A DNA stretch of 64,000 bases from Methylobacterium sp. PvR107 (GTDB taxonomy: Bacteria; Pseudomonadota; Alphaproteobacteria; Rhizobiales; Beijerinckiaceae): NCBI RefSeq assembly GCF_017833295.1, contig NZ_JAFIBW010000001.1, positions 124,001-188,000 on the forward strand, in the 5' to 3' direction. A program made the position numbers and the translations under genes. The notes below the pieces were generated by a model. That model had not been told where the DNA came from. It ran no database searches and worked only from the letters and a program-made list of their open reading frames with translations. How positions within the stretch are numbered: the first letter of the stretch is position 1; each line of letters begins with the position of its first letter. Positions 4,656 through 27,705 of this stretch are shown here, one piece after another.

Positions 4656-5564
4656 TCAGGCTCGTTCAGCGGAGACCAAGCGTCTTCGCGCATCCCTCGT
4701 CAGGCGGATCGCCGCCCCGGTGGCCGCTTTGGCGCGATCGCTCAAGACGGAGCAGCCTGGCCCGCGCGGCGTGACGCCGAGGCGTCGAAGATAGTGATTG
4801 GCCCGGTAGATGTCGGCTCGATACCAAGCCGGAAATTCAAAGTTGAGGCTCAGCGAGATCGAGATGTTGTCGTGGTTCTTGACCCAGTGCGCACCATGGG
4901 TCGGGATATGAACCGCATCGCCCGGATCGAGCCGAAAATGCTGCGCCTCGACGTCGACCCGCGGCTTGTAGTGGCCCGCCGAGATGTCGCCTGCATAGTA
5001 AACCTCAAGCTCTTCCTCGGTCGTGACTGTGCGATCGTTCGGATCGCAGACCCACAGATCCTTGGATCCGGCGATCTGCACCAGGAAGTTGACCTCGGCG
5101 TCGAAATGGAATGGCGTGACCCGATTGGGCGAGGTGATGAAGACCAGCATCTCGGGATTGCGGAGCAGGTGAGCACCTGACGGTCCCGCCACATCCCGTA
5201 CGAAGGCGGCCCAATCCGCGAGGACCGCAGCGTAGGCCGGGTTCACCTCGACGTGCTTCATGACGATCCACGCGCCTGCGCTCTCGATCCGTTCGATGAC
5301 GTCGGTCACCGGCCGGTCCGGCACGGGGATCTTTCCCCACTTGTCGTCGATGCTGACGTCGCCCGCGTCGAAGTAGAGATCACCCTTGCGCTTACTCACC
5401 TCACGCGCGAGGCGCATCAAGGCGTCGACCGTGAAGAGCGGATGTGCGGCCAACGGGTGGGTCGCCCGGAACGGCTCACGGTGAAGGGCCCGCCGACAGA
5501 CCTCGACAGGCTCGCGCGTCGCCCAGTGAACGGTGGCGGCCTCTCCCTTTTGCACCGTCGTCAT
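4656..5564 (-). CDS. JmjC/cupin-8-type Fe(II)/2-oxoglutarate-dependent oxygenase
   Basis: 302 residues; the ATG follows AAGGAG at a good distance. The double-stranded beta-helix carries an HxD pair (H153-F-D155 in TPFHFDAEVNF) and a distal His in HIPTHGAHW (H223 or H226), the usual iron triad. LWVCDPND between them is typical of cupin-8 aspartyl/peptidyl hydroxylases. The last 50 residues are basic. It lies leftward beside a methyltransferase and near the NRPS/PKS genes. I infer that it hydroxylates a carrier-bound amino acid or the released peptide. Its upstream region holds a TGACA-TT-TGTCA dyad like those before other cluster genes. Confidence 0.75.
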   Translation of the reverse strand: MTTVQKGEAATVHWATREPVEVCRRALHREPFRATHPLAAHPLFTVDALMRLAREVSKRKGDLYFDAGDVSIDDKWGKIPVPDRPVTDVIERIESAGAWIVMKHVEVNPAYAAVLADWAAFVRDVAGPSGAHLLRNPEMLVFITSPNRVTPFHFDAEVNFLVQIAGSKDLWVCDPNDRTVTTEEELEVYYAGDISAGHYKPRVDVEAQHFRLDPGDAVHIPTHGAHWVKNHDNISISLSLNFEFPAWYRADIYRANHYLRRLGVTPRGPGCSVLSDRAKAATGAAIRLTRDARRRLVSAERA

Positions 5565-6037
5565 TGAACGTCTCCTTCTTACGGTCAGATAGTGTTATAC
5601 AGGTCGATCCGGAGGCAATGACATTTGTCAATACTGTTTAAATCCCCCAAGATTTTGATTTCTTGCTGATCAAATCGGACATGCGACAACGATCGTTCCG
5701 ATAGATTGAGTGTTGGTCGTCGATGCGTTGTCATACTAATGTTTGCGTGACTCGAAAAAATCCTGTTATATTACCTGTGTTCTGCGATTGCGGAGCGCAT
5801 ATAGGCTATCGATGGCTGACAGGGCGCGACATGACGGGTTCTCGTCAGGTTCGTGTCGGCAGCATAGACGCGGGGTGCCGTGTTCCTCACCGTTGCCCGA
5901 TCCGTCATCGCCGGCGGCACGGTTGGCCTTTCAGGGTCCCACGTCATTCGTCGCCGGCTCGCGCCGGTGACGCCGATGGGGCAAGCCGGCCTCTTCGTCA
6001 GAAACGGTGTCCGCCGCCAGGCCCAGCACGACACGAG
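5565..6037 (-). other. AT-rich intergenic region upstream of the oxygenase gene
   Basis: About 470 bases, clearly richer in A+T than the flanking genes. It lies between two leftward genes, so the oxygenase probably has its own promoter here rather than being read from the methyltransferase promoter. No gene is supported. Confidence 0.5.
5618..5631. promoter_or_regulatory. TGA-N6-TCAA dyad (FNR/FixK-superfamily-like site)
   Basis: ATGACATTTGTCAA contains the perfect inverted repeat TGACA-TT-TGTCA. It sits 54 bases upstream of the ATG at 5564. It matches the outline (T)TGA-N6-TCAA shared with sites at 7560 and 22451, each before a transcription unit of the same cluster. The binding protein is not known; CRP/FNR-family proteins recognise this outline. 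Confidence 0.4.
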
Positions 6038-6931
6038 TCAGCCGTCAGCGCGGATCTCCTGTCCGGACTGCGTCGCGACGAAAACGGGGTCATGTTCCAG
6101 TAAGAACCCGGAATAAAAAGGAACCGTATGATCGGCATCACCCGGAATCTGGAGGGTCAGCTCCGCTGCAGACCAAGTGTCGAGCAAGCGATAACCGGCG
6201 CCCTCAAGTTCCTTCAGGAGCTCCTGTCGGTTCCTGACCAGGCAGGCCACCCGAAAGGACCCGCTATCCTGCACCGCCGCAAACGACGGGCCATCCGTCA
6301 CCGGTGTCCGGTTGATGAGAATGTATCTCGGTACGTCCTCCAGGGTCGAAAGCATGCTCGCGAGCGGTTGTTTCAGGTAGTGTAGGGCACCGGAAATCAG
6401 GAGAAGATCCGCGCCGCTGGCTTCGCGCCACGTATCCGCGAATGAGAGGCGGTCTGCGCCGCGCGCCTGCGCCAGCCTTCGCCCGCGTGCGATGTTCTCC
6501 GGGAGATCGTGTACGGTCCAGGCCAGATCCTTGTCTGGGAAAAAATCTGAATAACAATAATATAAATTGCCGACATTGCCTCCTAAATCGAAGATCGATC
6601 GGATGTTGGGGAGCAGGCGCTGCAGGTGGAAGAGAGCGGCATAGTCACTGGGACGCGCGCGCTTGTTCAGCGTGAGATGGAGGTCGGCGTTCGCGGGATT
6701 TTGGTGACCCTGCTGTGCATAGGCTGAAACCGCGGCCTCGGCCTCCTCCAATGTCCGGTAAGACCGTTGATAGCCGAGCGCCATGCGATACAGAGAGCGG
6801 AATCCAGGCGCTTCCCGAGCGGCGTTGATCACGCGCCGAGCCAGAGCCAGCCGACTCAGCCAGTTCAGCGCGGCTCCGGTGAACCGAACTTGGCGGACGC
6901 GCAGGGGTGTTTTTAGGGCTTCGGCGCTCAT
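6038..6931 (-). CDS. SAM-dependent methyltransferase, TIGR04325-like
   Basis: 297 residues from the ATG at 6931, chosen over an upstream TTG because CAGGAG lies nine bases before it. The SAM-binding glycine motif FDLGGNVGNLYY is at residues 114-125, followed by WTVHDLPE (acidic post-I motif) and LLLISGALHYL (motif II/III). The N-terminal 110 residues with YRTLEEAEAAV and the spacing fit the uncharacterised TIGR04325 family, which is often found in polysaccharide and natural-product loci. It is probably an O- or N-methyltransferase tailoring the cluster's product. It is divergent from the NRPS genes across a 727-base promoter region. Confidence 0.65.
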   Translation of the reverse strand: MSAEALKTPLRVRQVRFTGAALNWLSRLALARRVINAAREAPGFRSLYRMALGYQRSYRTLEEAEAAVSAYAQQGHQNPANADLHLTLNKRARPSDYAALFHLQRLLPNIRSIFDLGGNVGNLYYCYSDFFPDKDLAWTVHDLPENIARGRRLAQARGADRLSFADTWREASGADLLLISGALHYLKQPLASMLSTLEDVPRYILINRTPVTDGPSFAAVQDSGSFRVACLVRNRQELLKELEGAGYRLLDTWSAAELTLQIPGDADHTVPFYSGFLLEHDPVFVATQSGQEIRADG

Positions 6932-7658
6932 CGATTCTGGCTCCTGCGGATGTGATGTTGTCCTCAAATTCGTAAATCGTCGGAGCTGAACTCATTGTAG
7001 GACCGCGACCGAAGCTTTTAATGCTGTGTTTCGTAGATACGTCTTGAATCTGATGGCCTGTCTTTTCCGACCGATATTGGGACGTCGTCAGTCGCAGGGG
7101 ATCGATGCGACGTGACAGTGCTGGTCTTTCCGAAGCTCATTTGCGTCGAACCTGCCGAACGCAGGTATACCGTCTGCCCACTGGCCCCAGGGCGAGCGGG
7201 TCGCTCTCGAAGTGTCGCGATGTAGACGGTTCATCAACAGTGTCAGAAGAATGCGTCCTGCTCCCGGGATGTAGGCCAGTCGACATCGGCGCTCGTCAGT
7301 ACAAGAAAACTCAGTCTCGCCTCTTGATTTCAATGATCTATGCCGTATTCAATGGCTAGCATACGCAAATTTGCATTTCCTGACATCGCAAATGTCTCAT
7401 CGAGATGGCTTGTCGGTCGCATATTTTTGCAGTGCACAAATAAGACAGTTGTCTGACCATCTAGACCCGTCTGACAGAGCGTAGAACATTGCCGATAACC
7501 TGGACTTCGCGTCAGCTTCATTCGGTTGGCGCAGTTATCATGCGGAATCATCGTGTCAAGTTGATTAAAATCAACGGCGAATCGCATTATAACGCTAGGA
7601 GGGATGCCGGTAAGGCTTTGATCTCACATTATAGAGCCATGTTATCGAGGCCAAAAGC
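6932..7658 (+). other. Divergent AT-rich control region of the biosynthetic cluster
   Basis: 727 bases without a supported gene, between the leftward methyltransferase and the rightward NRPS operon. It holds several inverted repeats: GACAT-CGCAA-ATGTC (7382-7396), AGACA-GT-TGTCT (7443-7454) and the 7560-7575 palindrome. A TATAAC hexamer lies at 7588. The NRPS start is preceded by GAGG at 8-base spacing. This is the most likely place for control of the main operon. Confidence 0.55.
7560..7575. promoter_or_regulatory. Perfect FNR/FixK-type palindrome upstream of the NRPS operon
   Basis: GTTGATTAAAATCAAC is a perfect dyad and contains TTGAT-N4-ATCAA, the textbook FNR/FixK (anaerobox) consensus. 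It lies 84-99 bases before the NRPS ATG. The nearest -10-like hexamer (TATAAC, 7588-7593) would put the site centre near -33; another (TATAGA, 7630) near -75. Neither is the classical -41.5, so activation or repression cannot be decided. Confidence 0.55.
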
Positions 7659-10163
7659 ATGCATTCTTCGATGGCCGCTGAAGGTGGGCTGCGCGTTGCC
7701 GAGCATTCGCAGGACGGATTGACGGCAGGGCCCGGTTCGGCGGCACGTGTGCTGCCTGAGTGGCTTCTCAGGGCACCGGATCTGCGGAGGCCGTCCTTCG
7801 CCGCGGCGGTGGCGTCGCTCTGCGCCGCTGCGAGCGCCGTCTTCCATCGCTACACCGGGGCATCGCGGGTGCGTCTCCGGATCTGCGGCAGCGATGCGCA
7901 GCAACGCGTCGAGCCCGTCGAGCTGGAGGCGGACATCGCGGACGATCCGACCTGGAGCGCTTTCCGCGACGCGGTTCAGGTGCGCATCGCGGTCGCGGGA
8001 TCGGTTTCGCGTCCTCGGCAGGCCGCGTCATCGGTCATCGCTCACGGCATCCTGATCGACCTCGTGGGCGATGGGGGGACGGCCGACAGCCTGCGTCTCC
8101 GCGTGGAGCCGGGAGCGGCGGAGTACCGGGTCACGGCATCCGGGGCGTCCGGGATCCTCGATGCGGAGGGTCTTGCGGGCTGGCTCGCGGCGCTGCGGTG
8201 GCTGTTGGAGGCTGCGGCCAGCGCGCCCGACACGTCGGTCTCTCGCCTGCCGCTCTTGAGCCCCCCGGAGCGAGCCGCGCGGATCGCCAGCGGCACGGGA
8301 GCGCGACGGCCCTATCCGCGCGACGCGACGGTTCCGGACCTGTTCGCGGCCCAGGTCCGGCTTCGTCCGGACGCGGTGGCGATCCGGGACGGCACGCAAA
8401 CGTGGACGTACCGTGAGCTCGATGCCGAGGCCGACGCCCTTGCACGGTGCCTGATCAGCCGGGGCGCGAAACCGGGCGCACGCATTGGCCTGCTCTTGGA
8501 CCGCTCCGGGTCCGCCATCGTGACCCATCTCGCCGCGCTCAAGGCCGGTGCCGCTTACGTACCCCTCGACCCGGCTCACCCGGACGAACTCCTCGCGCTG
8601 CAGATCGCCGACAGCGACCCCGCCGTCGTCGTCTCGAGACGCGGCCTCGCCGCGGGGCGGGCGCACGGGAGTTTATGGACCTGCCCGACGCTTTGGCTCG
8701 ACGATCCCGCCCCCCTCCCCGAGCCGGGCGTTGCGCTGCCAGGACCGGGCGCGGCCGAGGATCTCGCCTACGTCATGTATACCTCGGGCACGACCGGGCG
8801 TCCGAAGGGCGTGATGGTCCCGCATCGCGGTATCGCGCGGCTCGTGGTCAACACCGATTTCGCGGCGCTTGGCCCGGACGAGATCTTCCTTCAGCTCGCC
8901 CCGCTGGCCTTCGATGCGGCCACCCTCGAGATCTGGGGACCGTTGCTCAACGGTGGCGAGCTCGTCGTCATGCCGGCGGGCCCGACCACCGTCGACGCCA
9001 TCGCCCGCGCCGTCAGGGACCATGGCGTCACCACGCTCTGGCTCACGGCCGGCCTCTTCCACCTGATGGCCGACGGGCCGCTCGAAGACCTCGCCTCCCT
9101 GCGTCAACTGCTGGCCGGCGGGGACGTGCTGTCGCCGCGCCACGTCAGGCAGGTCCTCGACGCGCTTCCGCAGTGTCGACTGATCAACGGCTACGGACCG
9201 ACGGAGAACACGACCTTCACCTGTTGCTACACGGTGCCGCGCGGTTTCCCGCCGGCCGAGACGATTCCGATCGGCAGGCCGATCGCGAACACCTGCGCGC
9301 ACATCCTCGATCCCCGGCTCGAGCCGCTGCCGCGCGGCGCCGTCGGCCAACTCTGCGCCGGCGGAGACGGCCTGGCACGCGGCTATCTCGGCCGCCCGGA
9401 TCTCACGGCCGAGCGCTTCGTGAGCGATCCGTTCTCCCGCGAGCCCGGGGCGCGGCTCTACCTGACGGGCGATCTGGTCCGCGAGCGTCCCGACGGGACG
9501 CTCGCGTTCCTGGGGCGCGTCGACGGCCAGGTGAAGATCAACGGCCACAGAGTCGAGCTGGAGGGCCTGGACGCCACCCTGCGCCGCCTGCCGGGCGTCC
9601 GTGACGCCGTAGCGATCGTCGAGGCCGACGCAGGCGGCGGCAAGAGCCTCGTCGCCTATGTGGTGCTGGAGCCGCCGGAAACCTCGCCTGAACGCCTGCG
9701 CACGGCGCTCGCGCAGCGTGTGCCGGCCGCGATGATTCCGAGTGCTTTCGTCGCGCTACCGTCGCTGCCGCTCGGACCGAACGGCAAGGTCGACCGCCGT
9801 GCGCTCAAGCGGCCGGTGCGGACCCGCCCCAACCTCGGGCGTCCCTGTGTTCCGCCGCGGGGGCCGGACGAGGAGCGGGTCGCCCGAGAGTGGCGCCGTG
9901 TGCTCGGGATCGACGCCGTCGGTGTCGAGGACAACTTCTTCGATCTCGGCGGCACGTCGCTTCAGCTGATGGCGATCCACCAAGCGCTGCGCGCGGTCCT
10001 GGCGCCGGATCTCACCATCGTCGACCTGTTCGCGAGACCGACCATCCGGTCGCTCGTCGCCTCCTCCCGCGCGCCCGATCCCGCGGACGCCCCGAATGCG
10101 CGGGCGCGCGCGACCCGGCAGAGCGACGCCCTCCGTCGTTTCCGGCAACACGCGAGGTCATGA
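7659..10163 (+). CDS. NRPS starter module: C-lobe remnant, adenylation domain (Val-like code), PCP
   Basis: 834 residues. Residues 1-215 match only the C-terminal lobe of a condensation domain (AVFHRYTG, then a LLSPPER linker); the HHxxxDG lobe is missing. The A domain (about 225-705) has YTSGTTGRPKG (A3), FDAATLEIWG (A4), NGYGPTE (A5), LYLTGD (A7) and NGKVDR (A10). Reading specificity positions against GrsA-PheA gives D-A-L-W-L-G-G-T-F-K, a valine-type code. The PCP (about 735-805) carries FFDLGGTSLQL with its phosphopantetheine Ser near residue 766. It probably loads valine and passes it to the KS of the next protein. The stop overlaps the next start (ATGA). Confidence 0.9.
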   Translation: MHSSMAAEGGLRVAEHSQDGLTAGPGSAARVLPEWLLRAPDLRRPSFAAAVASLCAAASAVFHRYTGASRVRLRICGSDAQQRVEPVELEADIADDPTWSAFRDAVQVRIAVAGSVSRPRQAASSVIAHGILIDLVGDGGTADSLRLRVEPGAAEYRVTASGASGILDAEGLAGWLAALRWLLEAAASAPDTSVSRLPLLSPPERAARIASGTGARRPYPRDATVPDLFAAQVRLRPDAVAIRDGTQTWTYRELDAEADALARCLISRGAKPGARIGLLLDRSGSAIVTHLAALKAGAAYVPLDPAHPDELLALQIADSDPAVVVSRRGLAAGRAHGSLWTCPTLWLDDPAPLPEPGVALPGPGAAEDLAYVMYTSGTTGRPKGVMVPHRGIARLVVNTDFAALGPDEIFLQLAPLAFDAATLEIWGPLLNGGELVVMPAGPTTVDAIARAVRDHGVTTLWLTAGLFHLMADGPLEDLASLRQLLAGGDVLSPRHVRQVLDALPQCRLINGYGPTENTTFTCCYTVPRGFPPAETIPIGRPIANTCAHILDPRLEPLPRGAVGQLCAGGDGLARGYLGRPDLTAERFVSDPFSREPGARLYLTGDLVRERPDGTLAFLGRVDGQVKINGHRVELEGLDATLRRLPGVRDAVAIVEADAGGGKSLVAYVVLEPPETSPERLRTALAQRVPAAMIPSAFVALPSLPLGPNGKVDRRALKRPVRTRPNLGRPCVPPRGPDEERVAREWRRVLGIDAVGVEDNFFDLGGTSLQLMAIHQALRAVLAPDLTIVDLFARPTIRSLVASSRAPDPADAPNARARATRQSDALRRFRQHARS

Positions 10164-13100
10164 CGATGGACGATTCAGGCATGCTGCTCGAGGGCATTGC
10201 CGTCATCGGCATGTCCGGCCGGTTTCCGGGCGCGCGGAGTGTCGACCAGCTCTGGTCGAACCTGACGACCGGCATCGACTCGATCACCCGATTCGGCGAC
10301 GCGGACCTTGAGGACAGCTTCCCGCCCGAAACCCGCGCCCAGCCGAATTTCGTCCGGGCGCGCGCCATCATCGACGAGGTCGACAAGTTCGACGCGGGCT
10401 TCTTCGGGATGTACCCGCGGGAGGCCCAGCTCACCGACCCTCAGCACCGCGTCTTCCTCGAATGCGCCTGGGAAGCCCTGGAGGACGGCGGCTACGACCC
10501 GGCTGCCTGTTCCGGATCGATCGGCGTCTTCGCCGGGTGCAGCGTCCCGACCTATTTTCTCAATAACGTCTGCACCGACCGCGGCGTCATCGACGACTTC
10601 ACGAATCAATACCAAGTCGGCGGCTATCCGACGCTCGTCGGCGCCGCGCAGGATTTCCTCGCGACCAAGACGTCCTACAAGCTTGATCTGCGCGGTCCCA
10701 GCATCACGTCGCTGTCCGCGTGCTCGACCTCGCTCCTGTGCGTCACGCAGGCCTGTCAGAGCCTGTTGCTCTACCAAGCCGACATGGCGCTGGCCGGCGG
10801 CGTCTCGATCAGCCTGCCGCAGAAGCGCGGTTACCTGCATCAGGATGGCGGGATGGTGTCGGCGGACGGCACCTGCCGGCCCTTCGATGCCGAGGCGACC
10901 GGCACGGTGTTCGGCAGCGGGGCGGCCGTCGTCCTGCTCAAGCGGCTGGACGACGCCGTTCGGGACGGTGACGCGATCTACGCGGTGATCCGCGGCTTCG
11001 GCGTCAACAACGACGGCGCCGCCAAGGTCGGGTACACGGCTCCGAGCGTCGACGGCCAGGCGGCCTGCATCATGGCCGCCCACGCCATGGCCGGCGTCGA
11101 CGCGAACACCATCGGATACGTCGAGTGCCATGGCACCGCCACGCCGCTCGGCGATCCGATCGAGCTGGCGGGTCTGGAGAAGGCCTTCCGCGCCTCGACC
11201 GGCGAGCGGCAATTCTGCGCCCTCGGCTCCGTCAAGGCCAATATCGGGCACCTCGACGTCGCGGCGGGAACGGCCGGGCTGATCAAGACCTGCCTGGCCC
11301 TCAAGCACCGGCGCCTGCCGCCGATGGCGCATTTCCGGACGCCGAATCCGCGCTTCGACTTCGCGGCGAGCCCCTTCTTCGTGAACACCGCCCTCGGCGA
11401 TTGGCCGGCGCGGGACGGCGTGCGGCGGGCCGGGGTCAGCGCGTTCGGCGTCGGGGGCACCAACGTCCATCTGGTGCTCGAGGAGGCGCCCGCTCAAGGG
11501 GCGGTCGAGGACACAGCCGGTCCGCAGGTCCTGCTGGTCTCGGCGCGCAGCGCCGAGGCGCTCGCCGAGGCGCGGGGCCGTCTGGCCGACCGGCTCGCGG
11601 CCCCCGATGCGCCGACCCTCGCCGACACCGCCTTCACGCTTCAAGTCGGGCGCCGCGCCTTCCCCTACCGGACCGCCATCGTCGCCGACGATCACGCGAC
11701 GGCGATCCGCGCGCTGCGGGAGGCGCCGTCGCCCGGCGCGGCGTCGCCCGCCGACCCGCCCGACATCGCCTTCATGTTCCCCGGCCAGGGCTCGCAGCAT
11801 CCCGGCATGGCGCGGGCTCTTTACGAGGGCGTGGAAAGCGTCCGCGCCGACATCGAGAGCTGCGTCGCGTTCCTCGCGCGCCACGAGGGCATCGATCTCC
11901 GCCGCGTCCTCTACGATCTGCCGCCGGACGCGGCGGCCGAGGCCCTGCGCTCGACCGCGATGGCGCAACCCGCGCTCTTCAGCGTCTCCTACGCCCTCGC
12001 CCGGCTCTGGCAGACCCTTGGGCTCGTGCCGCGCGCCACGATCGGCCACAGCGTCGGGGAGTTCGTCAGCGCCCAGCTCGCCGGCGTGCTGACCCTGGAG
12101 GACGCCCTGCGGGTCGTCGCGGCCCGCGGACGGCTGATGAACGACCTGCCCGGCGGTGCGATGCTCGCGGTCCGGCTGCCGGAGGCGGATCTGGCTCCAC
12201 GCCTGCCCGAGGGGGTCGCCGTCGCGGCGGTCAACGGGCCGACCCTGTCGGTGGCGTCCGGCCCGCACGAAGGCATCGCCGCCCTCGAGGCGTCCCTCGC
12301 GGCCGACGGCGTGGCGGCGCGCCGCCTGCACACCTCGCACGCCTTCCATTCGCCGATGATGGAGCCGATGGTCGATCGGCTGCACGATCTCCTCCGGACG
12401 GTCGAGCTGCGGCCGCCCTGCGCCCCGTACATCTCCTGCGTCACCGGCACCTGGATCACGCCGGAGCTGGCGACGTCGACCGAATACTGGGCCCGGCACG
12501 CGCGCGAGACCGTGCGCTTCCACGAAGGCGTCCTGACCCTGGTCGGCGAGACGCCCGCGATCCTGATCGAGGCCGGTGCCGGACAGGCGCTCACGACACT
12601 CGCCATGCAGGCCTGCCTGCGCCGCCCGGACGTGACCGTCGTGCCGTCCCTGTTGGCGGCCGGCGGCGACGGTGACGACCGGGCGGCGTTCCTCGGCGCG
12701 CTCGGGCGGGCCTGGGTCGCGGGCGCCAAGCCGGACTGGCGCCAGCTCCACGGGGACGGGCCGCGGCGGGTCTCGCTGCCGACCTATCCGTTCGAGCGCC
12801 AGAGCCACTGGATCGAGGCCAGGCCCTGGTCCGGCGCCGCGACGGCCGGGAACCCGCTGACCGGGCCGGCTTCGCTGCCGGCCGCGGAAACGCCGCCGAT
12901 GCCGGTATCGATGGAGAGGGAGGAGGGACGGATGCAGGACGGGCGCGAAGCGAGAGTCCTTCAGGCGGTCGCGGCGATCTTCACCGACTTGTCGGGCGAG
13001 GATGTCACCCGGACGCCAGGAAAGAGCTTCCTCGAACTCGGATTCGACTCGTTGTTTCTGACCCAGGCGGCCAGCAAGATCCAGGCGCGCTTCGGCCTGA

Positions 13101-16100: not shown

Positions 16101-18199
16101 ATTTCGACCTGTTCTTCAATCTCGTGGAGACCGGCGACGGCATCCGCATCGAGGTGGATTACAGCCGTGACCTCTTCGACGAGGCGACGGTTCAGCGCTG
16201 GATCGGTCACTACCGGACGCTCCTTGAAGCGGTCGTGGCGAACCCGGTCGGGCGGGTCGACACGGTGCCGATCCTGTCCCCGCGCGAGCGGGCGGAGTTG
16301 CTGCGTGTCGCCGCCGGTCCGGTCCGCGCCATTCCCGGCCTGTCCGTGCCGGCCCTGGTCGCGGCCGGGGCGCGGGATCCGGATCGCCCTGCCCTCGTCT
16401 GCGACGGCACCACGCTCACCCACGGGGAGATCGATCGCCGGTCGAGCCAAGTCGCCCATCACCTCAGGCGCAGGCTGGACGGGCGGCCGGGCGGCCGCAT
16501 CGCGGTCCTGGCCGACCGCTCGCCCGACATGCTCATCGCGCTCCTCGGGGTGATGAAGGCGGGCTGCGCCTACGTGCCGCTCGATCCGAGCCATCCCGCG
16601 TCCCGCATCGGGCACATCCTCACCGATGCCGACGTGGCCGGTCTCCTGGTGGCGGGCGGCGCGCCCGGGCTGCCGCCCGAGCTCGCCATGCCCGACGGGG
16701 CGGTCTTGATCGATCTGGCGGCCGAGGCGCCGGCGATCGACCAGGAGGACGCGACGCCGCCGCAGGTCGCCTTCGACCCGGCTCAGCCGGCCTACGTGAT
16801 CTACACATCCGGCTCGACCGGTCAGCCCAAGGGCGTCGAGATCTCCCACGGATCGGTGGTCAATTTTCTGATCTCGATGCTGCGCGAGCCCGGCCTCGGC
16901 GCGGATGACGCCCTGCTCGCGGTGACCACGGTGTCCTTCGACATCGCCGTGCTCGAACTGTTCGCCCCGCTCTGCGCCGGCGGCCGCGTGATCCTGGCCC
17001 CGAGCCGGACCTTGTCCGACACCTTCGCGCTGCTGGACCTCGTGCGCGCGAGCGGCGCCACCGTGATGCAGGCGACGCCGAGCCGCTGGCAGATGCTTGT
17101 GGAGGCGGGCTTCCAGTCCAGACCCGGCTTCCGGATGCTGTGCGGTGGCGAGCCGCTGACCCGGAATCTGGCCGACGCCCTGCTGGCGGGTGGCGGCGAA
17201 CTCTGGAACCTGTACGGGCCGACCGAGACGACCGTCTGGTCCTCGGTGGGCCGGGTGGAGGCCGGCGAGGCGCCAATCACGATCGGGGGCCCGCTCGACA
17301 ACACGCAGCTCCACGTTCTGGACGGCGCCGGCGCGTTGCTGCCGGTAGGGGTCCGGGGTCAGCTCCATATCGGGGGGGCCGGGCTCGCGCGCGGCTACCT
17401 CCATCGCGACGATCTGACCGCCGAGAAGTTCATCGCCGATCCGTTCTCCACGGCGGCCGGGGCGCGGCTCTACCGGACGGGCGACCTCGCCTGCCGGAAG
17501 GCCGACGGCAGCATCCGGCTTCTCGGCCGCGCGGATCATCAGGTGAAGCTGCGCGGCTTCCGGATCGAGCCCGAGGAGATCGAGGCGGTCCTGGCGCGGC
17601 ACGCGGGACTGGGCGCCTGTGCCGTGGCCCTGCGCGCGGACGTCACGGGCGAGCAGCGGCTTGTCTGCTACTTCGCCGAGACGAACGGGCCTGTCACGAC
17701 GGCGGCGCTGCGCGAGGCTCTCGGCCGGTATCTGCCCGACTACATGATCCCGAGCCTGTTCGTGCCGCTGGCGGCGCTTCCTCTCTCGCCGGCCGGCAAG
17801 GTCGACCGCAAGCGCCTCCCCGTGCTCGACGCGGTGCCCGCGATGGACGCGGCGCCGCTCTCCGCGGGCGGGCGGGCGCCCGGCACGCCGACCGAGCGGA
17901 CGCTGACCGCGATCGTGACGGACGTCCTCGGCATCGAGGCGATCGGTATCGACGACGACATGTTCGCCTTCGGCCTCGATTCGCTTCAGGTGTTCCGGAT
18001 CGTGGCGCGCGCGCATCAGGCGGGCATTCGGACCACCGCGAAGGACCTGTTCCTCCATCGCTCCGTGTCGGCCATCGCCGCCGGGAGCGACGTGGCGCCG
18101 GTCCAGGTGCGCAGCAGGCCGACGCTCGTCGGGGTCGCCCGCGCGGCGCGGCGCGCGGGGGCGAACGGCGGTCACCTGCGCTCCGAGGAATTCCAGTGA
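10160..18199 (+). CDS. Hybrid PKS-aminotransferase-NRPS megasynthase (KS-AT-ACP-AMT-C-A-PCP)
   Basis: 2679 residues from the ATG overlapping the previous stop. The order of domains is as follows. KS (10-435) has active Cys about 187 in SACSTSLLC and His in ECHGTATPLGDP and NIGHLDVAAGT. AT (535-875) has GHSVGE and HAFHSPM, which indicates malonyl-CoA. ACP (925-1000) has LGFDSLFL. A PLP class-III aminotransferase (1150-1585) has IFDEVVTGFR and the PLP Lys about 1406 in YGKVVGGG. C (1605-2045) has HHIVCDG. A (2060-2550) has positions D-I-L-Q-L-G-L-V-W-K, a glycine-type code. PCP has GLDSLQ, Ser about 2606. No KR, DH or ER is present, so the beta-ketone is the natural aminotransferase substrate, as in MycA/ItuA and McyE. 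Confidence 0.92.
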   Translation: MTMDDSGMLLEGIAVIGMSGRFPGARSVDQLWSNLTTGIDSITRFGDADLEDSFPPETRAQPNFVRARAIIDEVDKFDAGFFGMYPREAQLTDPQHRVFLECAWEALEDGGYDPAACSGSIGVFAGCSVPTYFLNNVCTDRGVIDDFTNQYQVGGYPTLVGAAQDFLATKTSYKLDLRGPSITSLSACSTSLLCVTQACQSLLLYQADMALAGGVSISLPQKRGYLHQDGGMVSADGTCRPFDAEATGTVFGSGAAVVLLKRLDDAVRDGDAIYAVIRGFGVNNDGAAKVGYTAPSVDGQAACIMAAHAMAGVDANTIGYVECHGTATPLGDPIELAGLEKAFRASTGERQFCALGSVKANIGHLDVAAGTAGLIKTCLALKHRRLPPMAHFRTPNPRFDFAASPFFVNTALGDWPARDGVRRAGVSAFGVGGTNVHLVLEEAPAQGAVEDTAGPQVLLVSARSAEALAEARGRLADRLAAPDAPTLADTAFTLQVGRRAFPYRTAIVADDHATAIRALREAPSPGAASPADPPDIAFMFPGQGSQHPGMARALYEGVESVRADIESCVAFLARHEGIDLRRVLYDLPPDAAAEALRSTAMAQPALFSVSYALARLWQTLGLVPRATIGHSVGEFVSAQLAGVLTLEDALRVVAARGRLMNDLPGGAMLAVRLPEADLAPRLPEGVAVAAVNGPTLSVASGPHEGIAALEASLAADGVAARRLHTSHAFHSPMMEPMVDRLHDLLRTVELRPPCAPYISCVTGTWITPELATSTEYWARHARETVRFHEGVLTLVGETPAILIEAGAGQALTTLAMQACLRRPDVTVVPSLLAAGGDGDDRAAFLGALGRAWVAGAKPDWRQLHGDGPRRVSLPTYPFERQSHWIEARPWSGAATAGNPLTGPASLPAAETPPMPVSMEREEGRMQDGREARVLQAVAAIFTDLSGEDVTRTPGKSFLELGFDSLFLTQAASKIQARFGLKVAFRQLLGDLSTLDALTKHVLAALPPTAFRDEAPAGPQPSPAVVPVPAAPVAPAEAAASPVGMQGLEGLMREQLRVMSELVAQQLKVLNGAQASPPVHALVPAVPAIPDAPAKAGGAPRADKPAEAPSRFEIFKGGGQARGDLELTPAQQRHIADLVARYTRKTAGSKAFTERHRKVLADPRAVSGFRAEWKEMIYPIVTDRSGGSRLWDIDGNTYIDFLNGFGPTFLGHRSDLVVEAVRAQLDKGFEIGPQTALAGEVADLVCELTGNERATFCNTGSEAVMAAMRIARCVTGRDRIVMFSGSYHGQFDEVLVKRGGRSGAERALPAAPGIPSPNVGTMMVLEYADPAALDWIRAHGEEIAAVIVEPVQSRHPGLCPTGFLQSLRALTEAAEIALIFDEVVTGFRMHPGGMQTVLGIRADMATYGKVVGGGMPIGILAGKSRFMDALDGGDWRFGDDSAPEAGVTFFAGTFVRHPLALASARAVLRHLKEAGPALQEGLGRRARGFVGRLNTLLEERGIESRIETFGSLFYFSFAAEDRLASLLYYHLRLRGIYIQEGFPCFLTTAHSDADLDAFVTAFRESLDALRAVGILAGRAAADAPDFATPAELPLPAASRAEIPPSLEQAPLTEPQLEVWLAAQLGDATSCAFNESVSVRLRGPLDAAAFTAAFAQVMARHDALRCRFSPVGDALLVSEVAPSLVTLDFSGQPIHSASEALRGLIEAEAALPFDLVAGPPCRASLVRLAPDEHVLVLTAHHIVCDGWSINVIVEELASHYAEAVGRAPAELGPVLPFSRYAAAQAEARATPEISEATRYWCEVLRDLPPAMELPGDRPRPAIRTFSGSMTCGRLDGALVSALRSVGAERGCTLFATLLAGFQTLLGRLLDERDVVVAVPFAGQSLVEDQVLVGHCVNLLPLRARWDAETAFATLMAEARRALLEAHDQQNCTLGTIVRALGLPRDVNRLPLTTVQFNLERVASDLAFGDLGVKVEANPKRFVNFDLFFNLVETGDGIRIEVDYSRDLFDEATVQRWIGHYRTLLEAVVANPVGRVDTVPILSPRERAELLRVAAGPVRAIPGLSVPALVAAGARDPDRPALVCDGTTLTHGEIDRRSSQVAHHLRRRLDGRPGGRIAVLADRSPDMLIALLGVMKAGCAYVPLDPSHPASRIGHILTDADVAGLLVAGGAPGLPPELAMPDGAVLIDLAAEAPAIDQEDATPPQVAFDPAQPAYVIYTSGSTGQPKGVEISHGSVVNFLISMLREPGLGADDALLAVTTVSFDIAVLELFAPLCAGGRVILAPSRTLSDTFALLDLVRASGATVMQATPSRWQMLVEAGFQSRPGFRMLCGGEPLTRNLADALLAGGGELWNLYGPTETTVWSSVGRVEAGEAPITIGGPLDNTQLHVLDGAGALLPVGVRGQLHIGGAGLARGYLHRDDLTAEKFIADPFSTAAGARLYRTGDLACRKADGSIRLLGRADHQVKLRGFRIEPEEIEAVLARHAGLGACAVALRADVTGEQRLVCYFAETNGPVTTAALREALGRYLPDYMIPSLFVPLAALPLSPAGKVDRKRLPVLDAVPAMDAAPLSAGGRAPGTPTERTLTAIVTDVLGIEAIGIDDDMFAFGLDSLQVFRIVARAHQAGIRTTAKDLFLHRSVSAIAAGSDVAPVQVRSRPTLVGVARAARRAGANGGHLRSEEFQ

Positions 18200-19248
18200 G
18201 GATCGGCTGGCGCAGGCGCTATCGCTGGCGCCGGTCGGCGGTGCTGGCAACCTTGGCGCTGCTCCTGGAAGGCACGCTGATCGGACGCGTCACCCGTGCG
18301 GGGGCCGAGCCGGATCTCGCCGCGCACGTCGTGCGTGCGCGGCTCCCGAACGAGCAGCCCGGTCCGGCCCGCAGGATCGGGATCCATGTCTGGCTGCCGT
18401 CCGGCCCCGTGACCGGCCCCGTGCCGCCGCTCGTCTATGCCCACGGCTGGGGCGGCCGCGCACGCGAGAACGCGGACCTTCTCCGCGCCCTCGCCGATCA
18501 GGGCTTCGTGGTGATCGGCATCGACTTCCCCGCCCCGGGCTTCGCCGGCCTGGATTTCCGCTCGGAACTGGCCGGCCAGCGCACCCGCATGCTCGCGGAG
18601 CGCGAGGTCCGCCTCCAGGCCGGCGACATCCAGGCTGCCCTGGACTGGCTGGCCGATACCGGACGCGCGCGGCTGCCCCGCAACCTCGCGGATCGCCTGG
18701 ACCCGCATCTCGCCGGCGTGCTCGGCTATTCCTTCGGCGCTTCCGCGGCGGCAGAGGCGGCCCGCGCGGACCGGCGGATCCGCGGGGTTCTGAACCTCGA
18801 TGGTTGGCTGTTCGGGAATCCGGCCGCCCCGGTCTTCGCCGCAGCCTACATGGTCATCACCGATTCCCTGGATCCGCCGTCGGCCGAGGCGCTCGCCGCG
18901 GACGATCCGGGCCGTCGTGCCCACGCGATCCAGGACGCGCAGGACAGCGACCGGCAGCTTCGGCAGCTGCGATCGGGCGGGTTCGCGATCGAGATCCCGC
19001 ACGCCACCCACGGGAGCTTCTCGGGCACGGGGGGCGATCCCGAGATCCGGAGCGTCGTCTCGGCCTACGCGGCAGCCTTCTTCGCCCGGTCCCTGCGCGG
19101 CAGCGCCGCCGACGTCTCGGAGGCGACGCACCCCTCGCCCCGGATCCGCTTCCGCGCATGGCCGCCTTCCGCGGAGGACGCGACGCTGTTGGCGCGTCCG
19201 GTCGCGGCCTCCGCCATCATGGCCTCATCCTGCAGGACCTCGCGATGA
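18196..19248 (+). CDS. Membrane-anchored serine hydrolase within the NRPS operon
   Basis: 350 residues from the GTG that overlaps the megasynthase stop (GTGA), with GAGGAA just upstream. An Arg-rich start and a hydrophobic stretch (residues 13-28) form a signal anchor. The rest is an alpha/beta hydrolase of the PAF-acetylhydrolase/dienelactone-hydrolase kind. It has VYAHGWGG (oxyanion hole), nucleophile elbow GYSFGASAA, an acid near MVITDSLDP and a His in IPHATHGSF. A periplasm-facing hydrolase translationally coupled to NRPS genes could mature a precursor, trim the product or detoxify it. The substrate is not evident. The stop overlaps the next ATG. Confidence 0.75.
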   Translation: MRIGWRRRYRWRRSAVLATLALLLEGTLIGRVTRAGAEPDLAAHVVRARLPNEQPGPARRIGIHVWLPSGPVTGPVPPLVYAHGWGGRARENADLLRALADQGFVVIGIDFPAPGFAGLDFRSELAGQRTRMLAEREVRLQAGDIQAALDWLADTGRARLPRNLADRLDPHLAGVLGYSFGASAAAEAARADRRIRGVLNLDGWLFGNPAAPVFAAAYMVITDSLDPPSAEALAADDPGRRAHAIQDAQDSDRQLRQLRSGGFAIEIPHATHGSFSGTGGDPEIRSVVSAYAAAFFARSLRGSAADVSEATHPSPRIRFRAWPPSAEDATLLARPVAASAIMASSCRTSR

Positions 19249-21668
19249 CACAGCTGCAATCGGCGCAGCGCACCTGCTGCGCATTTCCCTGCACCCCGGT
19301 GCAGGAACGCTTCTTCGTGGCCGAGCTCCTCGCGCCCGGCAACGCCGGCCTCAACATCGCGCTCCGCTGGTCGCTGGTCGGGCCCGTGAGCGGAACCATC
19401 GTGGGTCTCGCGCTCCGCCAGCTCATCGCCCGGCACGAGATCCTGCGCACAGCCTTCGTGGAGGGCGAGAACGGCCCCGTCCAGCAGGTCTATCCCGCGG
19501 CGGACCTGCACGTGCCCGAGCTCGACCTGCGGCTGCTGGGGACGGTGGAACAGGAATTCGACCGGATCTCCGCGGAGGAGGCCCGGCGGCCCTTCGACCT
19601 GTCGCGTCCGCCCCTGATGCGGGCGCAGCTGCTCCGGTTCTCCGAGCAGGAAAGCTTCCTCCTGATCACGGCCCACCACATCGTCGCCGACGGCTGGTCG
19701 ATGGGCATTCTCGCCCGAGAATTCGCGACGCTGTGCGACGGCCTCATCGGCGGGACGCCGACACCGCTGCCCGAGCTGCCCGTTCAGTACTCGGACTATG
19801 CCCTGTGGCAGCAGGCCCTGGCCGATTTCGGCGAGGGCGCGGCCGCGGACGCGTACTGGCGCGCGCGCCTGGCGGGCTTCCGCCGCTTCGAGATCGCCAC
19901 CGACTTCCCGCGCCCGCCGGCCCTGACGCGCGACAGCGCCATCACGTCGATCCTGATGCGCCCCGCCCTGACCGCCGCGGCGGACCGCGTGGCGCGGGCC
20001 AGCGGCGCGACGTGGTTCACCACGATGCTGACGGGTCTGCTGCTCGTGCTGCGCGCCCGCGCGGGCAGCGACGACGTGATTGTCGGCACTCAGGTCGCGG
20101 GCCGTTACGAGGTCGAGCTCGAGAACGTCGTCGGACCCTTCATCAACACGCTGGCGCTGCGGACCGATTTCGCCGGCGTGCAGACTTTCGCGGAGGCGCT
20201 GGCGCGCGTCGCCGACACCCTGCAGGGCGCGCTCGACAACGGCACCACGGCGCTCGAGACGATCATCGAGATCGTCAAGCCGGACCGGGACCCGAGCCGG
20301 CATCCGCTGTTCTCGATCAACGTCATACAGCAGCGGGCCTTCGACGAGGTGCGGTGCGCGAATCTCCTGCTGCGCGGCGTACCCTCGCAATCGGCCGGGG
20401 CCCTGTTCGACCTGAACTTCTTCTTCGTCGAGCGGACCGAGGGCTGGCGCTTCTCCTGCGAGTACAACACCGTCCTCTACCGGCCGGACACCGTCGTGGC
20501 GATGCTGGAGGACACGCTGTCGCTCCTGACCGAGGCGCTCGACGACCCCCGGCGGCCGATCCCACGGCTTGCCGCGCGGCCGGCCGCCGAGGAAGCCGTG
20601 GCGGCACCGCCTCCCGTCTCGCGCCCGGTGGGCCAGGCGGATGACATCGTCCGGCGCCTGCTTCCCTTGTGGCGGGCGACCCTCGGCGCGGGCAGCGATG
20701 AGGCCGGCTTCCTCGACGCCGGAGGCCATTCCCTGAGCGCGTTCCGTCTCATCGCCCGCATCCAGCAGACCTTCGAGGTCCGGCTCGAGATCGACCGGTT
20801 TCTCGGCAACCCGACGGTGAGCGGCCTCGCCGACGCGATCCGGAAAGCCACGGCCCCGCGCGACGCACTCGCCTCCGTGGTCACCCTGCAGCCGCACGGC
20901 GCCGCGACCCCGATCATCGCCTTCGACAATCCCTTCCTGTTCCAGGACCTTGCCAAGCGGATCGGCGCCGATCGGCCCTTCCTCTGCGTCATGCCGGCCG
21001 CCCATATCAACGGCGATCCCGCGCTCTCGTTCGCCGCGGTGGCGGCCCATTACGTCGAGGGCATCCGCCGGGCCCAGCCTCAGGGCCCCTACGTGCTTCT
21101 CGGCCACTGCTTCGGCAGTCATCTCGCCTACGCGGCGGCGCAGCAACTCGTCCGGGCCGGCGCCGAGGTCGCCTGCGTCATCGCGGTCGACGGCTGGGCG
21201 CCCGGCCATCTCGCCCGCCGTTCCCGGCGCGAGGCCTTCCTGATCAACACGTCCTACCGCCTGATCCGCTGGCAGATGGCGCTGGACAAGCTCCTGCGCG
21301 GGCAACTGCCCCTGACGCGGCTCCTCGAGAAGCTCCGGATCCGGCTCGGCCGGCCAAACCCGTCCGCGGTCCCGGACGCGGAAATCGAGCGAGTCCTCTG
21401 GCTGAAGGACCGACTGTCCCGGCACCCGATCGAACCCTACAGCGGCCCCATCCTCGTCGTGCGCGCGCTCGGAGAGCCCACGGGGCTGTTCTTGGACCCG
21501 ACACTCGGATGGCGCGAGCTCGCAACGGGGCGCCTCGAGATCCGGGACGCGCCCGGAAACCACTTCACCATCTTCGAGGGCGAGTCGGTCCAACACGTCG
21601 CCGCGGCGGTGCGCCAGACGCTCGCCCGGCTCGAGGATGCCGGCGCCTCGGAACCGGCGACCGCGTGA
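19245..21668 (+). CDS. NRPS termination protein C-PCP-TE lacking an A domain; TE with Cys nucleophile
   Basis: 807 residues. The ATG overlaps the previous stop (ATGA). The condensation domain (1-430) has an intact HHIVADG at about 143 and NTLALRTDF in its C-lobe. There is no adenylation domain. A PCP (about 460-535) follows with DAGGHSLSAF, Ser near 494. The type I thioesterase (550-800) has LLGHCFGSH, so the nucleophile position is Cys (about 622) instead of Ser; the general-base His is in GNHFTIFEG. Cys thioesterases are known from strained-ring formation, such as the obafluorin beta-lactone TE. The amino acid used by this C-PCP must be loaded in trans, or the module only transfers and releases the chain. 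Confidence 0.9.
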   Translation: MTQLQSAQRTCCAFPCTPVQERFFVAELLAPGNAGLNIALRWSLVGPVSGTIVGLALRQLIARHEILRTAFVEGENGPVQQVYPAADLHVPELDLRLLGTVEQEFDRISAEEARRPFDLSRPPLMRAQLLRFSEQESFLLITAHHIVADGWSMGILAREFATLCDGLIGGTPTPLPELPVQYSDYALWQQALADFGEGAAADAYWRARLAGFRRFEIATDFPRPPALTRDSAITSILMRPALTAAADRVARASGATWFTTMLTGLLLVLRARAGSDDVIVGTQVAGRYEVELENVVGPFINTLALRTDFAGVQTFAEALARVADTLQGALDNGTTALETIIEIVKPDRDPSRHPLFSINVIQQRAFDEVRCANLLLRGVPSQSAGALFDLNFFFVERTEGWRFSCEYNTVLYRPDTVVAMLEDTLSLLTEALDDPRRPIPRLAARPAAEEAVAAPPPVSRPVGQADDIVRRLLPLWRATLGAGSDEAGFLDAGGHSLSAFRLIARIQQTFEVRLEIDRFLGNPTVSGLADAIRKATAPRDALASVVTLQPHGAATPIIAFDNPFLFQDLAKRIGADRPFLCVMPAAHINGDPALSFAAVAAHYVEGIRRAQPQGPYVLLGHCFGSHLAYAAAQQLVRAGAEVACVIAVDGWAPGHLARRSRREAFLINTSYRLIRWQMALDKLLRGQLPLTRLLEKLRIRLGRPNPSAVPDAEIERVLWLKDRLSRHPIEPYSGPILVVRALGEPTGLFLDPTLGWRELATGRLEIRDAPGNHFTIFEGESVQHVAAAVRQTLARLEDAGASEPATA

Positions 21669-22636
21669 GGCGCAGACGGCCATGACGAGCCGCCTCGCAG
21701 AGACCCCGTGCCGTGCATGGGTGCATCGTCGAACGGAGGTTCACCTCTGGGGCTCGAACCGCGTGGTCCTTCTCCGCTGGTTCTGTCCGTCTCTGACTTC
21801 GCTTCCCCCGGGGAGGCGTTCCCAGGGTTCGGGGCTGACGGCACCGGTCCTGTGATGCGGCGCGCAGGATCGCCGAGGCACGTCCGGACGCGTCGTCCAC
21901 ACGTCGAGCTTACCGATTCCTGGCTGCTGCATGCACAGTCGCGGAGTTTCGGAAGCGAGAGTTTTTGCCGCTGTGAGCGAAAACGTCCCTTCGCATTCCT
22001 ATCCGACGGGTTGAGACCGCGGCGGCGGCGGTGACACTGCGATCATGCTCTCTGATTCGGGTAGGGCGGACTATGCGACGTGCCATGCTGGCGTCGGGCA
22101 GAGCCGCTGCACCACGGGGTCGGTCAACAGCCGGGATCAGAATCCGCTCTTACGCGCCAAGGCGTGGTGCGAAGGAAACCCCGCCGGATCGATTCGATCC
22201 CCAGCCGAATCCGGATCAATGAGCGGAAGACATCGTCTTGAAATGTAAGACGGTTTTCTATCAGTAAATATTCGAAATAATTATGTTCGAAGTCGGAATT
22301 TTGTGCTTCGGATGAGATAAGATCAAAAATTCATGCTATACGCGTGCCGAAAATCGGCCCATTGACGTGAAAATACAATAAAATTATCCGATTTTATACT
22401 TGGTCTAAAGTGAAAAATCCGGATCCGCAAGCTTGGCGTTTGAAGCAGATTTGACTTTTGTCAATCTGATAGGCCGGAGAATTGGCATAATCACGTTTAG
22501 GACGAAGCGATAATCCCGAAACGGATCCGACCGCGATCTCGCGACGTCGTACTTCATGGGACGGGTCGTGAATGGCGCCGCCATCACGGCCCCTGGCTCG
22601 GCTCAAGCAATTCCGAAGCGATCTGCAGGAGTGCAC
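21669..22636 (+). other. Long intergenic region before the PhyH-like gene
   Basis: 968 bases. The first half is GC-rich and holds only antisense-type frames. From about 22240 to 22500 it turns strongly AT-rich, with paired TTCGAA hexamers (22271 and 22286) and a TTGAC-TTTT-GTCAA dyad. No gene is supported. The AT-rich part is probably the promoter region of the dioxygenase. Confidence 0.5.
22451..22464. promoter_or_regulatory. TTGAC-N4-GTCAA dyad upstream of the PhyH-like gene
   Basis: TTGACTTTTGTCAA is a perfect 5-base inverted repeat of the TTGA-N6-TCAA class, 173 bases before the ATG at 22637. It shares its outline with the sites at 5618 and 7560 in the same cluster. Confidence 0.4.
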
Positions 22637-23500
22637 ATGTCGTCGACATCGGCCGCGGTTCTGCCCCCGCCCTCGGGCCGTCAGCGCTTCGCACCGCTCT
22701 CGGCTTTCAACACGTTAGGCTTTGCCGGACCGTTCACGCTGCGTGACACGGCTCAGGTCGAGACCTTGCGCCGCTTCATCGAAAGTCACCGAGACCCCGG
22801 CGTCCTCGGCCGCATCCTGTCCAAAGCACGTCTGACCGGCGATCGCCGTCTTCAACAGGTCGACGGCCATCTGGCATTCCGCCCGCTCTACGATTTCGCC
22901 GTGCAGCCCCAGCTGCTCGATGACGTCGAGTCCATCCTCGGTCCCGACATCCTCCTCTGGAAAGGCCGGATCATCGTTCGGCAGCCCGGCAGCTCGGGGC
23001 AGGATTGGCACGTGGACTTCGACAACAAGATGGTCGGCGGCGTCCACATAACCTTCGCGGTCGCGCCGATGACAAGCGACAACGGGGCGCTGCAACTGAT
23101 CCCGGGGACGCATCGCTACGAGGTCTCGCTGCACGAGAGTCAACGCAACGGTGCCTGCGACCTGCGCGACGCCGCCAGCATGCTCGCGCTCGCAGACGCC
23201 ACGCATCCAGAGAACGCGCCGCACGAACTCGTCACGATGGAGCTTGAGCCAGGAGAGTACTTCCTGACGAAGGGCGGCCTCTGGCACGGCGTACCGCCGA
23301 ACCACACCGTCGCGCCGCGTCCCGCCGTGCTATCGCGCTACATGACGCCGGACGTCGAGAGCCACATCTGGAGCCACGACGACTCCGCGCCCGTCGTCGT
23401 CAGCAAGCGGAGTCTGCCCTGCATCCTTGTGCGGGGCGAGGACAGCTTCCGGCTCAATCGCCTGCATGCGCCGCCGAGGCCGGCGGCGGGAAGAGCCTGA
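22637..23500 (+). CDS. Phytanoyl-CoA-dioxygenase-like Fe(II)/2-oxoglutarate oxygenase
   Basis: 287 residues from the ATG at 22637, which has AGGAG five bases upstream; the frame is open further 5' without a ribosome site. The PhyH fold shows the iron ligands H125-x-D127 (DWHVDFDN) and H217 (LWHGVPPNH), with R228 (APRPAVLSRY) as the likely 2-oxoglutarate binder. LQLIPGTHRYE is the usual PhyH strand. Relatives hydroxylate free or carrier-bound amino acids and small natural products. Its position at the right of the NRPS/PKS operon and the shared dyad upstream suggest a tailoring role, but it has its own promoter region. Confidence 0.75.
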   Translation: MSSTSAAVLPPPSGRQRFAPLSAFNTLGFAGPFTLRDTAQVETLRRFIESHRDPGVLGRILSKARLTGDRRLQQVDGHLAFRPLYDFAVQPQLLDDVESILGPDILLWKGRIIVRQPGSSGQDWHVDFDNKMVGGVHITFAVAPMTSDNGALQLIPGTHRYEVSLHESQRNGACDLRDAASMLALADATHPENAPHELVTMELEPGEYFLTKGGLWHGVPPNHTVAPRPAVLSRYMTPDVESHIWSHDDSAPVVVSKRSLPCILVRGEDSFRLNRLHAPPRPAAGRA

Positions 23501-24741: not shown

Positions 24742-24887
24742 GTCAGCACCTAAAAGCTATTGACAAACCTTGATCTTGCATCATGTTGCCGAAAGGCTTC
24801 TGAAAAGTAGGTTACCTTGTACCTTGGTGCAGGTTCGCGGGGCTTGATAAAAGTCGCCTTCAGCACATGCGATGGTCGGGGGCAGGG

Positions 24888-25130
24888 ATGTTCAGACGTT
24901 TCTACTTCGACGTCGACAATGGACGGGAAACGGTTCGAGACGACCAGGGCGTCGAGGCTGAGGACCTGGAGCAAGCGTTGGCCGATGCCCGAACCGTCAT
25001 CAGCGAAATAGCCGATGACCTGAAGGCCATCGATATGGATAGTCTCTGGACGCTCGTCGTACGTGACGAGACAGGATTGACGGTCGCGCATCTGCCACTC
25101 GGATTGTTCTCTCGATCACAGCAAGGATAG
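24888..25130 (+). CDS. DUF6894-type small protein
   Basis: 80 residues from the ATG at 24888 (GGGGGCAGGG upstream). The opening RRFYFDVDNGRE with DDQGVEAEDLEQALADARTVISEIADDL fits the DUF6894 family. These are short proteins common in Methylobacterium and Bradyrhizobium, with an aromatic-rich first strand (FFDxDDG) and a following helix. Function unknown. Its stop codon abuts an in-frame transposase remnant, so the original downstream context has been disrupted. Confidence 0.6.
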   Translation: MFRRFYFDVDNGRETVRDDQGVEAEDLEQALADARTVISEIADDLKAIDMDSLWTLVVRDETGLTVAHLPLGLFSRSQQG

Positions 25131-27628: not shown

Positions 27629-27665
27629 TCCAGACGCCGTCCGCCAGCGCTGCGCGCCAGGACGG

Positions 27666-27705
27666 CCCCAGGCTTGGCAAACCGGCGGGCCGCTCAGGCC
27701 TGGGG
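27666..27705. terminator. Stem-loop between convergent genes
   Basis: CCCCAGGC and GCCTGGGG form an 8-pair perfect stem around a 24-base loop just after the synthetase, overlapping the 3' end of the facing small gene. No T-run follows; a weak or Rho-assisted terminator is possible. Confidence 0.3.

Follow-up and report, generated by a model that had tools for sequence, protein, structure and literature searches.

A Methylobacterium member of a widespread NRPS-PKS family with a predicted route to a valine-derived diamino acyl-glycine

A 64,000-nucleotide stretch of the genome of Methylobacterium sp. PvR107 (NZ_JAFIBW010000001.1, positions 124,001 to 188,000; here called the window) carries a compact hybrid of nonribosomal peptide synthetase (NRPS) and polyketide synthase (PKS). 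The cluster is one member of a common family, not a singular system. It probably makes a chain of valine, malonate, an amine and a single glycine that is released by a cysteine thioesterase, as judged from domain order and sequence motifs. New here is the view of the whole family: a conserved diamino-acyl-glycine logic, a cysteine thioesterase module that is apparently eroding, and polysaccharide genes that recur in the neighbourhood. To our knowledge, vicinal diamines are uncommon among natural products, and the cluster, if this reading is true, would offer a short genetic path to them (Val + C2 + NH2 + Gly).

The assembly line and its predicted product

Four genes at 7659-21668 overlap by four bases of start and stop at each of their three junctions (10160/10163, 18196/18199 and 19245/19248), which suggests translational coupling and a single operon (Table 1). 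The last open reading frame spans 18804-21668, with ATG 19245 as its probable start. The first-pass annotation of this DNA had described three proteins built from adenylation (A), peptidyl carrier protein (PCP), ketosynthase (KS), acyltransferase (AT), acyl carrier protein (ACP), aminotransferase (AMT), condensation (C) and thioesterase (TE) domains. The orders A-PCP, KS-AT-ACP-AMT-C-A-PCP and C-PCP-TE hold in translation and in Pfam searches, but the hydrolase gene between the last two had been overlooked.

The A domain of the starter protein scores 296 bits, far over the Pfam cut-off, and is accompanied by a PCP; the A-PCP unit matches TIGR01733 with 410 bits against a cut-off of 317. The codes read from the translations and recomputed from alignments are DALWLGGTF for the starter A domain (A1) and DILQLGLVW for the second (A2). 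They reproduce the first nine residues of those given earlier (D-A-L-W-L-G-G-T-F-K and D-I-L-Q-L-G-L-V-W-K), the tenth, Lys, being assumed as usual and lying outside the alignment. We take the two codes to be Val-type and Gly-type, and others below to be Thr-type, from general code tables. Ketoreductase, dehydratase and enoylreductase domains are absent from the Pfam matches in the assembly-line proteins, and translation and Pfam bear out the earlier reading of a malonyl-type AT with HAFH and no reductive domain.

The best match of the AMT domain in the Protein Data Bank (PDB) is mycosubtilin synthase A (6kfm, E 3e-127, residues 3-426 of 430), by which it would be a pyridoxal phosphate (PLP)-dependent transaminase domain of the MycA/ItuA/McyE type. 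From this homology and the absent reductive domains, the AMT is predicted to convert a beta-keto thioester to a beta-amino thioester. MycA, ItuA and McyE have AMT modules with the same KS-AT-ACP-AMT-C-A order as the window and a homologous, near-full-length transaminase domain. They start from a fatty acyl or aryl unit, whereas the window would load an amino acid on A-PCP and has a far shorter line. With an amino acid as starter, the AMT would yield a vicinal diamine. Iturin-type synthetases load a fatty acyl starter, and the NRPS A-PCP starter with its Val-type code does not fit a lipopeptide synthetase of this type.

In the proposed pathway, valine would be loaded on PCP1 and extended by malonate on the KS-AT-ACP module. 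The AMT would aminate the beta-ketone to give 3,4-diamino-5-methylhexanoyl-ACP, and the internal C domain would couple the diamino acyl chain to glycine on PCP2. The TE-bearing protein would then free the chain through a Cys-Asp-His thioesterase, either as the free acid (C9H19N3O3) or as a lactam. The cupin and methyltransferase encoded nearby may tailor the product. The hydrolase, whose N-terminus looks signal-like by eye, is possibly exported and may act after secretion. The product may decorate or accompany a surface glycan, as many relatives' genes lie in or beside extracellular-polysaccharide loci.

Table 1 Features of the cluster and its surroundings (positions of the window).
Feature	Position	Strand	Remarks
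Cupin_8/JmjC-type protein	4656-5564	-	HxD...H motif read by eye; end coincides with synteny break at 4654
TIGR04325-family methyltransferase	6038-6967	-	187 bits, cut-off 80
Starter protein	7659-10163	+	N-terminal stretch without Pfam match, then A (~8343-9788) and PCP (~9873-10061)
Hybrid NRPS-PKS protein	10160-18199	+	KS-AT-ACP-AMT-C-A-PCP
KS	~10190-11335	+	Pfam
AT	11771-12727	+	malonyl-type, HAFH
ACP	near 13040	+	Pfam
AMT	13550-14839	+	Aminotran_3, 174 bits (Pfam), directly after ACP
Internal C	14978-16303	+	267 bits (Pfam), HHIVCDG
A2	16364-17800	+	286 bits (Pfam), code DILQLGLVW, presumed Gly-type
PCP2	17900-18082	+	Pfam
Alpha/beta hydrolase	18196-19248	+	weak PAF-AH/PETase-like Pfam matches, GYSFG elbow
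Terminal release protein	19245-21668	+	C-PCP-TE, no A domain
Terminal C	19287-20591	+	274 bits (Pfam), HHIVADG intact
Terminal PCP	20655-20840	+	LDAGGHSL
TE	20937-21614	+	80 bits (Pfam), Cys nucleophile GHCFG
PhyH-type oxygenase	22556-23500	+	HxD motif WHVDF (alignment to 2fct)
AMP-binding gene	25742-27628		matches acyl-CoA synthetase model PRK08162, 914 bits, cut-off 677

Distribution and conservation of the family

With the hybrid protein as query, 7992 candidates were scored and 7970 of them matched below 1e-30; 120 listed matches form the homolog set. A scan of GTDB genomes with a 6-row AMT alignment gave 555 confirmed loci, and the best 80 were used. The first-pass annotation had not recognised the architecture and regarded it as unusual, a view that has to be given up: the KS-AT-ACP-AMT-C-A core is present in 118 of the 120 homologs listed (exceptions P0105 and P0120) and in several phyla. 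The best 80 loci comprise 59 from Pseudomonadota, 16 from Acidobacteriota, 2 from Vulcanimicrobiota, 1 from Gemmatimonadota and 2 without phylum; Paraburkholderia, Rhizobium and Bradyrhizobium are among the loci kept. Its chain of valine, malonate, AMT-derived amine and glycine fares better, since the Val-type starter, malonyl-type AT, beta-transaminase AMT and Gly-type A2 are kept in most of the family. The window has the features that define this family, namely the core, a Gly-type A domain and a Val-type starter, and its closest protein among the matches listed is one named from Methylobacterium tardum (94%).

The catalytic residues of the core are nearly invariant. The internal C domain has HHxxxDG in all but one of 81 rows (the window and 80 loci), the remaining row being a gap. 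The PLP lysine of the AMT is kept in 81/81 rows, the ACP serine in 78/78, the KS cysteine in 72/73 (one gap) and the AT serine in 75/77 (two gaps), and HAFH is read in 75/77, the exceptions being one HGFH and otherwise a gap. Among the homologs listed, all 76 fused starter A domains have the Val-type code, and the first A domain after the AMT is of DILQ-type in 105 of 118, of DISD-type in 8 and a near variant in 5. The A domains after the AMT in the family loci (n=74) include seven of DV.QI-type, two with DFWNIGMVH and two of Val-type. Separate A domains in these loci have the Thr-type code DFWNIGMVH in 11 of 49 cases, and several are of DAFL/DIFL-type. Two loci (L030 and L074) have an A2 with a Val-type code, and in two from Bradyrhizobium (L023 and L033) both A1 and A2 have a Thr-type code.

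No characterised product was found for this architecture in the open-licence literature. A survey describes Pedobacter heparinus C6XWU5 as A-CP-KS-AT-CP-PLP1 with a predicted Nrp-Mal-Gly-Pk product (PMC3870968, table 2); by that survey description, which is the sole basis of the comparison, it is like the window in its A-CP-KS-AT-CP-AMT order and predicted Mal-Gly. Lichenicoccus roseus has a hybrid NRPS-PKS cluster whose product is described as likely undiscovered (PMC8776678), in text that gives neither architecture nor product; it probably belongs to the same family, as locus L016 is from that strain. Solanimycin was rejected as a relative, the available part of its paper describing a trans-AT system with a Gly-Dha peptide and another layout. 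A distant relative with 51% AMT identity is encoded in congener G090 (L104:1-20000) by one open reading frame of ~4834 aa, next to a gene that resembles asparagine synthase by eye.

The cysteine thioesterase

In the 69 terminal proteins compared (the window's and those of 68 loci), 58 TEs have a Cys nucleophile and 11 a Ser. In an alignment of 30 chosen loci and the window, all Cys-type with the 11 Ser-type TEs left out, Cys82 is invariant and Asp109 and His233 are each present in at least 90% of the 31 rows. A confident model of the window TE, built on this alignment (predicted local distance difference test score 90.8), has an alpha/beta-hydrolase fold in which the elbow holds Cys82 and the next strand (102-108) leads to Asp109; from this model we take the conserved Asp109 to be at position I.

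The best match of the TE, by sequence and by Foldseek, is AB3403 of Acinetobacter baumannii (4zxh), which has a complete C-A-PCP-TE module, whereas the terminal module of the window lacks an A domain. According to PMC11298585, AB3403 uses Cys as its nucleophile with Asp in the usual place, whereas the Cys TEs of SulM and ObiF have their catalytic Asp at position II, and that of SulM also a Gln-Cys-Asn motif. Formation of a beta-lactam or beta-lactone of the SulM/ObiF kind is not supported for the window, where the nucleophile is likewise Cys but the motif is His-Cys-Phe and Asp is modelled at position I. Release may proceed by hydrolysis or by lactam formation.

Extracellular polysaccharide genes beside many family loci

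In 34 chosen loci, 207 genes were called beside the assembly line and 190 were scanned. Glycosyltransferases, flippases, sugar transferases, phosphopantetheinyl transferases (PPTases), hydrolases resembling PAF-AH and cupins are among the most frequent families. A fixed set of queries finds polysaccharide genes next to 40 of the 80 family loci, in 20 genus-level groups, versus none of 20 control NRPS loci (Fisher p = 1.4e-5, with relatedness ignored and 16 rows from Paraburkholderia). The controls were NRPS stretches of 7-20 kb from congeners (18) and other members of the order (2), with hosts not matched to those of the family loci, and because the queries came from the family loci themselves, the comparison favours the family. 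Among loci longer than 21 kb, 34 of 59 have a polysaccharide gene. On two Rhizobium plasmids the assembly line is surrounded by genes for GH16, polysaccharide pyruvyl transferase, DegT and PPTase, to which the CCGE531 locus adds a flippase, a sugar transferase and a TIGR04325 methyltransferase and the SL42 locus an exopolysaccharide transport protein. On the large Rhizobium plasmids of loci L139 and L140, a three-gene version lies among exopolysaccharide genes with a GMC oxidoreductase and DegT.

We tentatively propose, while holding it unlikely in this full form, that the family makes a vicinal-diamino acyl-glycine bound to or co-made with extracellular polysaccharides, by which the glycan would gain a cationic or metal-binding group. 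The terminal module would have decayed in several lineages to a Cys thioesterase offloading straight from the upstream protein, possibly onto a glycan amine. If the polysaccharide link is true, modular thiotemplated synthesis would be tied to the cell-surface glycans of soil and plant-associated bacteria, rhizobial plasmids included, and these glycans would carry a testable new class of substituent.

We lean slightly towards another role, compatible with the same chemistry, in which the product is a free secreted small molecule (a signal, inhibitor or metal binder) and the exopolysaccharide (EPS) loci are mere insertion sites. None of eleven EPS queries matched the window or the 20 kb to its left at E 1e-4, which places the window outside the EPS-linked subset (polysaccharide genes within ~10 kb). 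In congener G149 (L101:14809-19105), genes of HlyD-type, processive GT2 and GH16 families adjoin the cupin gene, which is not so in the window strain; the best homolog of that GT2 in the window strain is 31% identical and lies ~5 Mb off by coordinate, and a search of its genome for the GH16 found none. Half of the 80 loci also show no polysaccharide gene, though 21 of the 80 are shorter than 21 kb. The 40 flanked loci against none of the controls, and the Rhizobium plasmids with the genes inside or beside an EPS locus, speak against this reading. For the family as a whole the glycan link is a tendency; for the window, with no EPS gene found beside the cluster, it is a hypothesis. An Acyl_transf_3 gene lies at 33284-34687 in the window, and this family also occurs near EPS loci.

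Apparent erosion of the terminal module

An A domain is seen in 12 of the 69 terminal proteins and not in 57, and the PCP motif is not seen in 27; the last two counts include L074, which has 575 residues between C and TE and probably a divergent A domain. In 44 terminal C domains Q, S, A, N or P stands in place of the second His of HHxxxDG, including the doubtful L044, a minus-strand protein that is perhaps not the terminal one. Five of the 69 proteins have two C domains. All five with an A domain and no second His carry odd A codes, which fits decay, although the direction of change is inferred. The terminal module looks eroded in the relatives while the internal C domain stays intact, and this suggests that C-PCP-TE probably goes back to a C-A(Gly)-PCP-TE module. 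A quick tree of the AMT, its labels set by hand, L044 excluded and L074 scored as having A, has at least 10 label changes for EPS genes, 5 for the terminal A domain, 6 for the His and 3 for the PCP; with many forks open, it does not tell gain from loss. The altered modules would form a natural series on the loss of an NRPS module with release retained.

The window protein is intermediate, with no A domain and yet an intact C motif and PCP. This bears on the alternative, which we hold to be possible though rather unlikely, that the terminal C-PCP is active, with a PCP charged in trans either by A2, which would supply a second Gly, or by another A domain, to give a diamino acyl-Gly-Gly or -Gly-X. 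HHIVADG and GGHS are kept in the window, C-A-PCP-TE with an intact C domain is found in 7 of the 69 terminal proteins, and all 45 later A domains in the fused homologs listed have a Gly-type code. Set against this are the missing A domain in the window's terminal protein and the absence of the second His from 39 of the 57 terminal proteins without a recognised A domain. The AMP-binding gene at 25742-27628 is an unlikely candidate for the missing trans A domain, as it matches an acyl-CoA synthetase model and sits in DNA common to cluster-free congeners.

Three points count against the single-glycine chain that we prefer. The intact terminal C and PCP motifs would allow a further condensation with a trans-loaded third residue. 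The A-domain specificities rest on general code tables, and the solved A domains in the PDB left them unsettled. The codes also differ among relatives, so that the product is presumably not uniform across the family.

A probable accessory region in Methylobacterium

The window is collinear with congener G149 over 4654-33932, breaking off on the left where the cupin gene ends, and the cluster is ~92% identical there over 17 kb. In a comparison of the first 36 kb, four congeners that have no AMT match share only ~25930-32008 with the window, and in these the compared stretches extend 10 to 12 kb further left. From the break at 4654 and the sharing from ~25930 on, we infer that 4654-25930 is accessory DNA. 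The TonB-dependent receptor gene at 29721-32003, with strong matches in 46 of 59 genus genomes including its own, would be backbone rather than part of the cluster. An integrase-core (rve) transposase gene (37095-38066) lies between the accessory region and flagellar genes.

Only 4 of 111 genomes of the genus pass AMT E 1e-100, and 6 of 385 of the class pass E 1e-120, the own genome included in both. This patchiness, and the four congeners that share the right flank without the cluster, would suit a decaying remnant, an operon that ceased to be productive in Methylobacterium once its terminal A domain was lost. That is very unlikely, with the catalytic motifs read as intact, the frames open and the cluster retained in G149. 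We give still less credence to an early exit, in which the gamma-amine attacks the ACP thioester to form 4-amino-5-isopropylpyrrolidin-2-one (or a tetramic acid if the AMT is slow) and the NRPS part acts elsewhere: five-membered ring closure from a 4-amino acyl thioester is chemically plausible, but C-A follows the AMT in the same protein in the 118 homologs noted above, with its C motif intact.

Flanking genes

The first-pass annotation had drawn the cluster at 4656-23500, a range that holds the assembly line and also takes in the cupin/JmjC, TIGR04325 methyltransferase and PhyH genes. Homologs of the hydrolase are found in 32 of the 80 family loci, of the cupin in 24, of the methyltransferase in 11 and of a PPTase in 44; the same queries gave 0/20, 0/20, 0/20 and 2/20 in the control NRPS loci. 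The cupin is probably an oxygenase tailoring enzyme, and the methyltransferase is a possible tailoring enzyme. Two PF01648 (PPTase) matches lie elsewhere in the genome, one of them perhaps AcpS.

The PhyH-type gene has no homolog in any of the 80 family loci, so a core role is not supported and its membership of the pathway is doubtful. In Fe(II)/2-oxoglutarate halogenases such as SyrB2 and CytC3, HxA or HxG replaces HxD. The window's protein looks like a hydroxylase and not a halogenase, as HxD is present and the TIGR01762 score is 58 bits against a cut-off of 226. Between the cluster and the acyl-CoA synthetase gene, the window encodes a small DUF6894 protein at 24867-25130.

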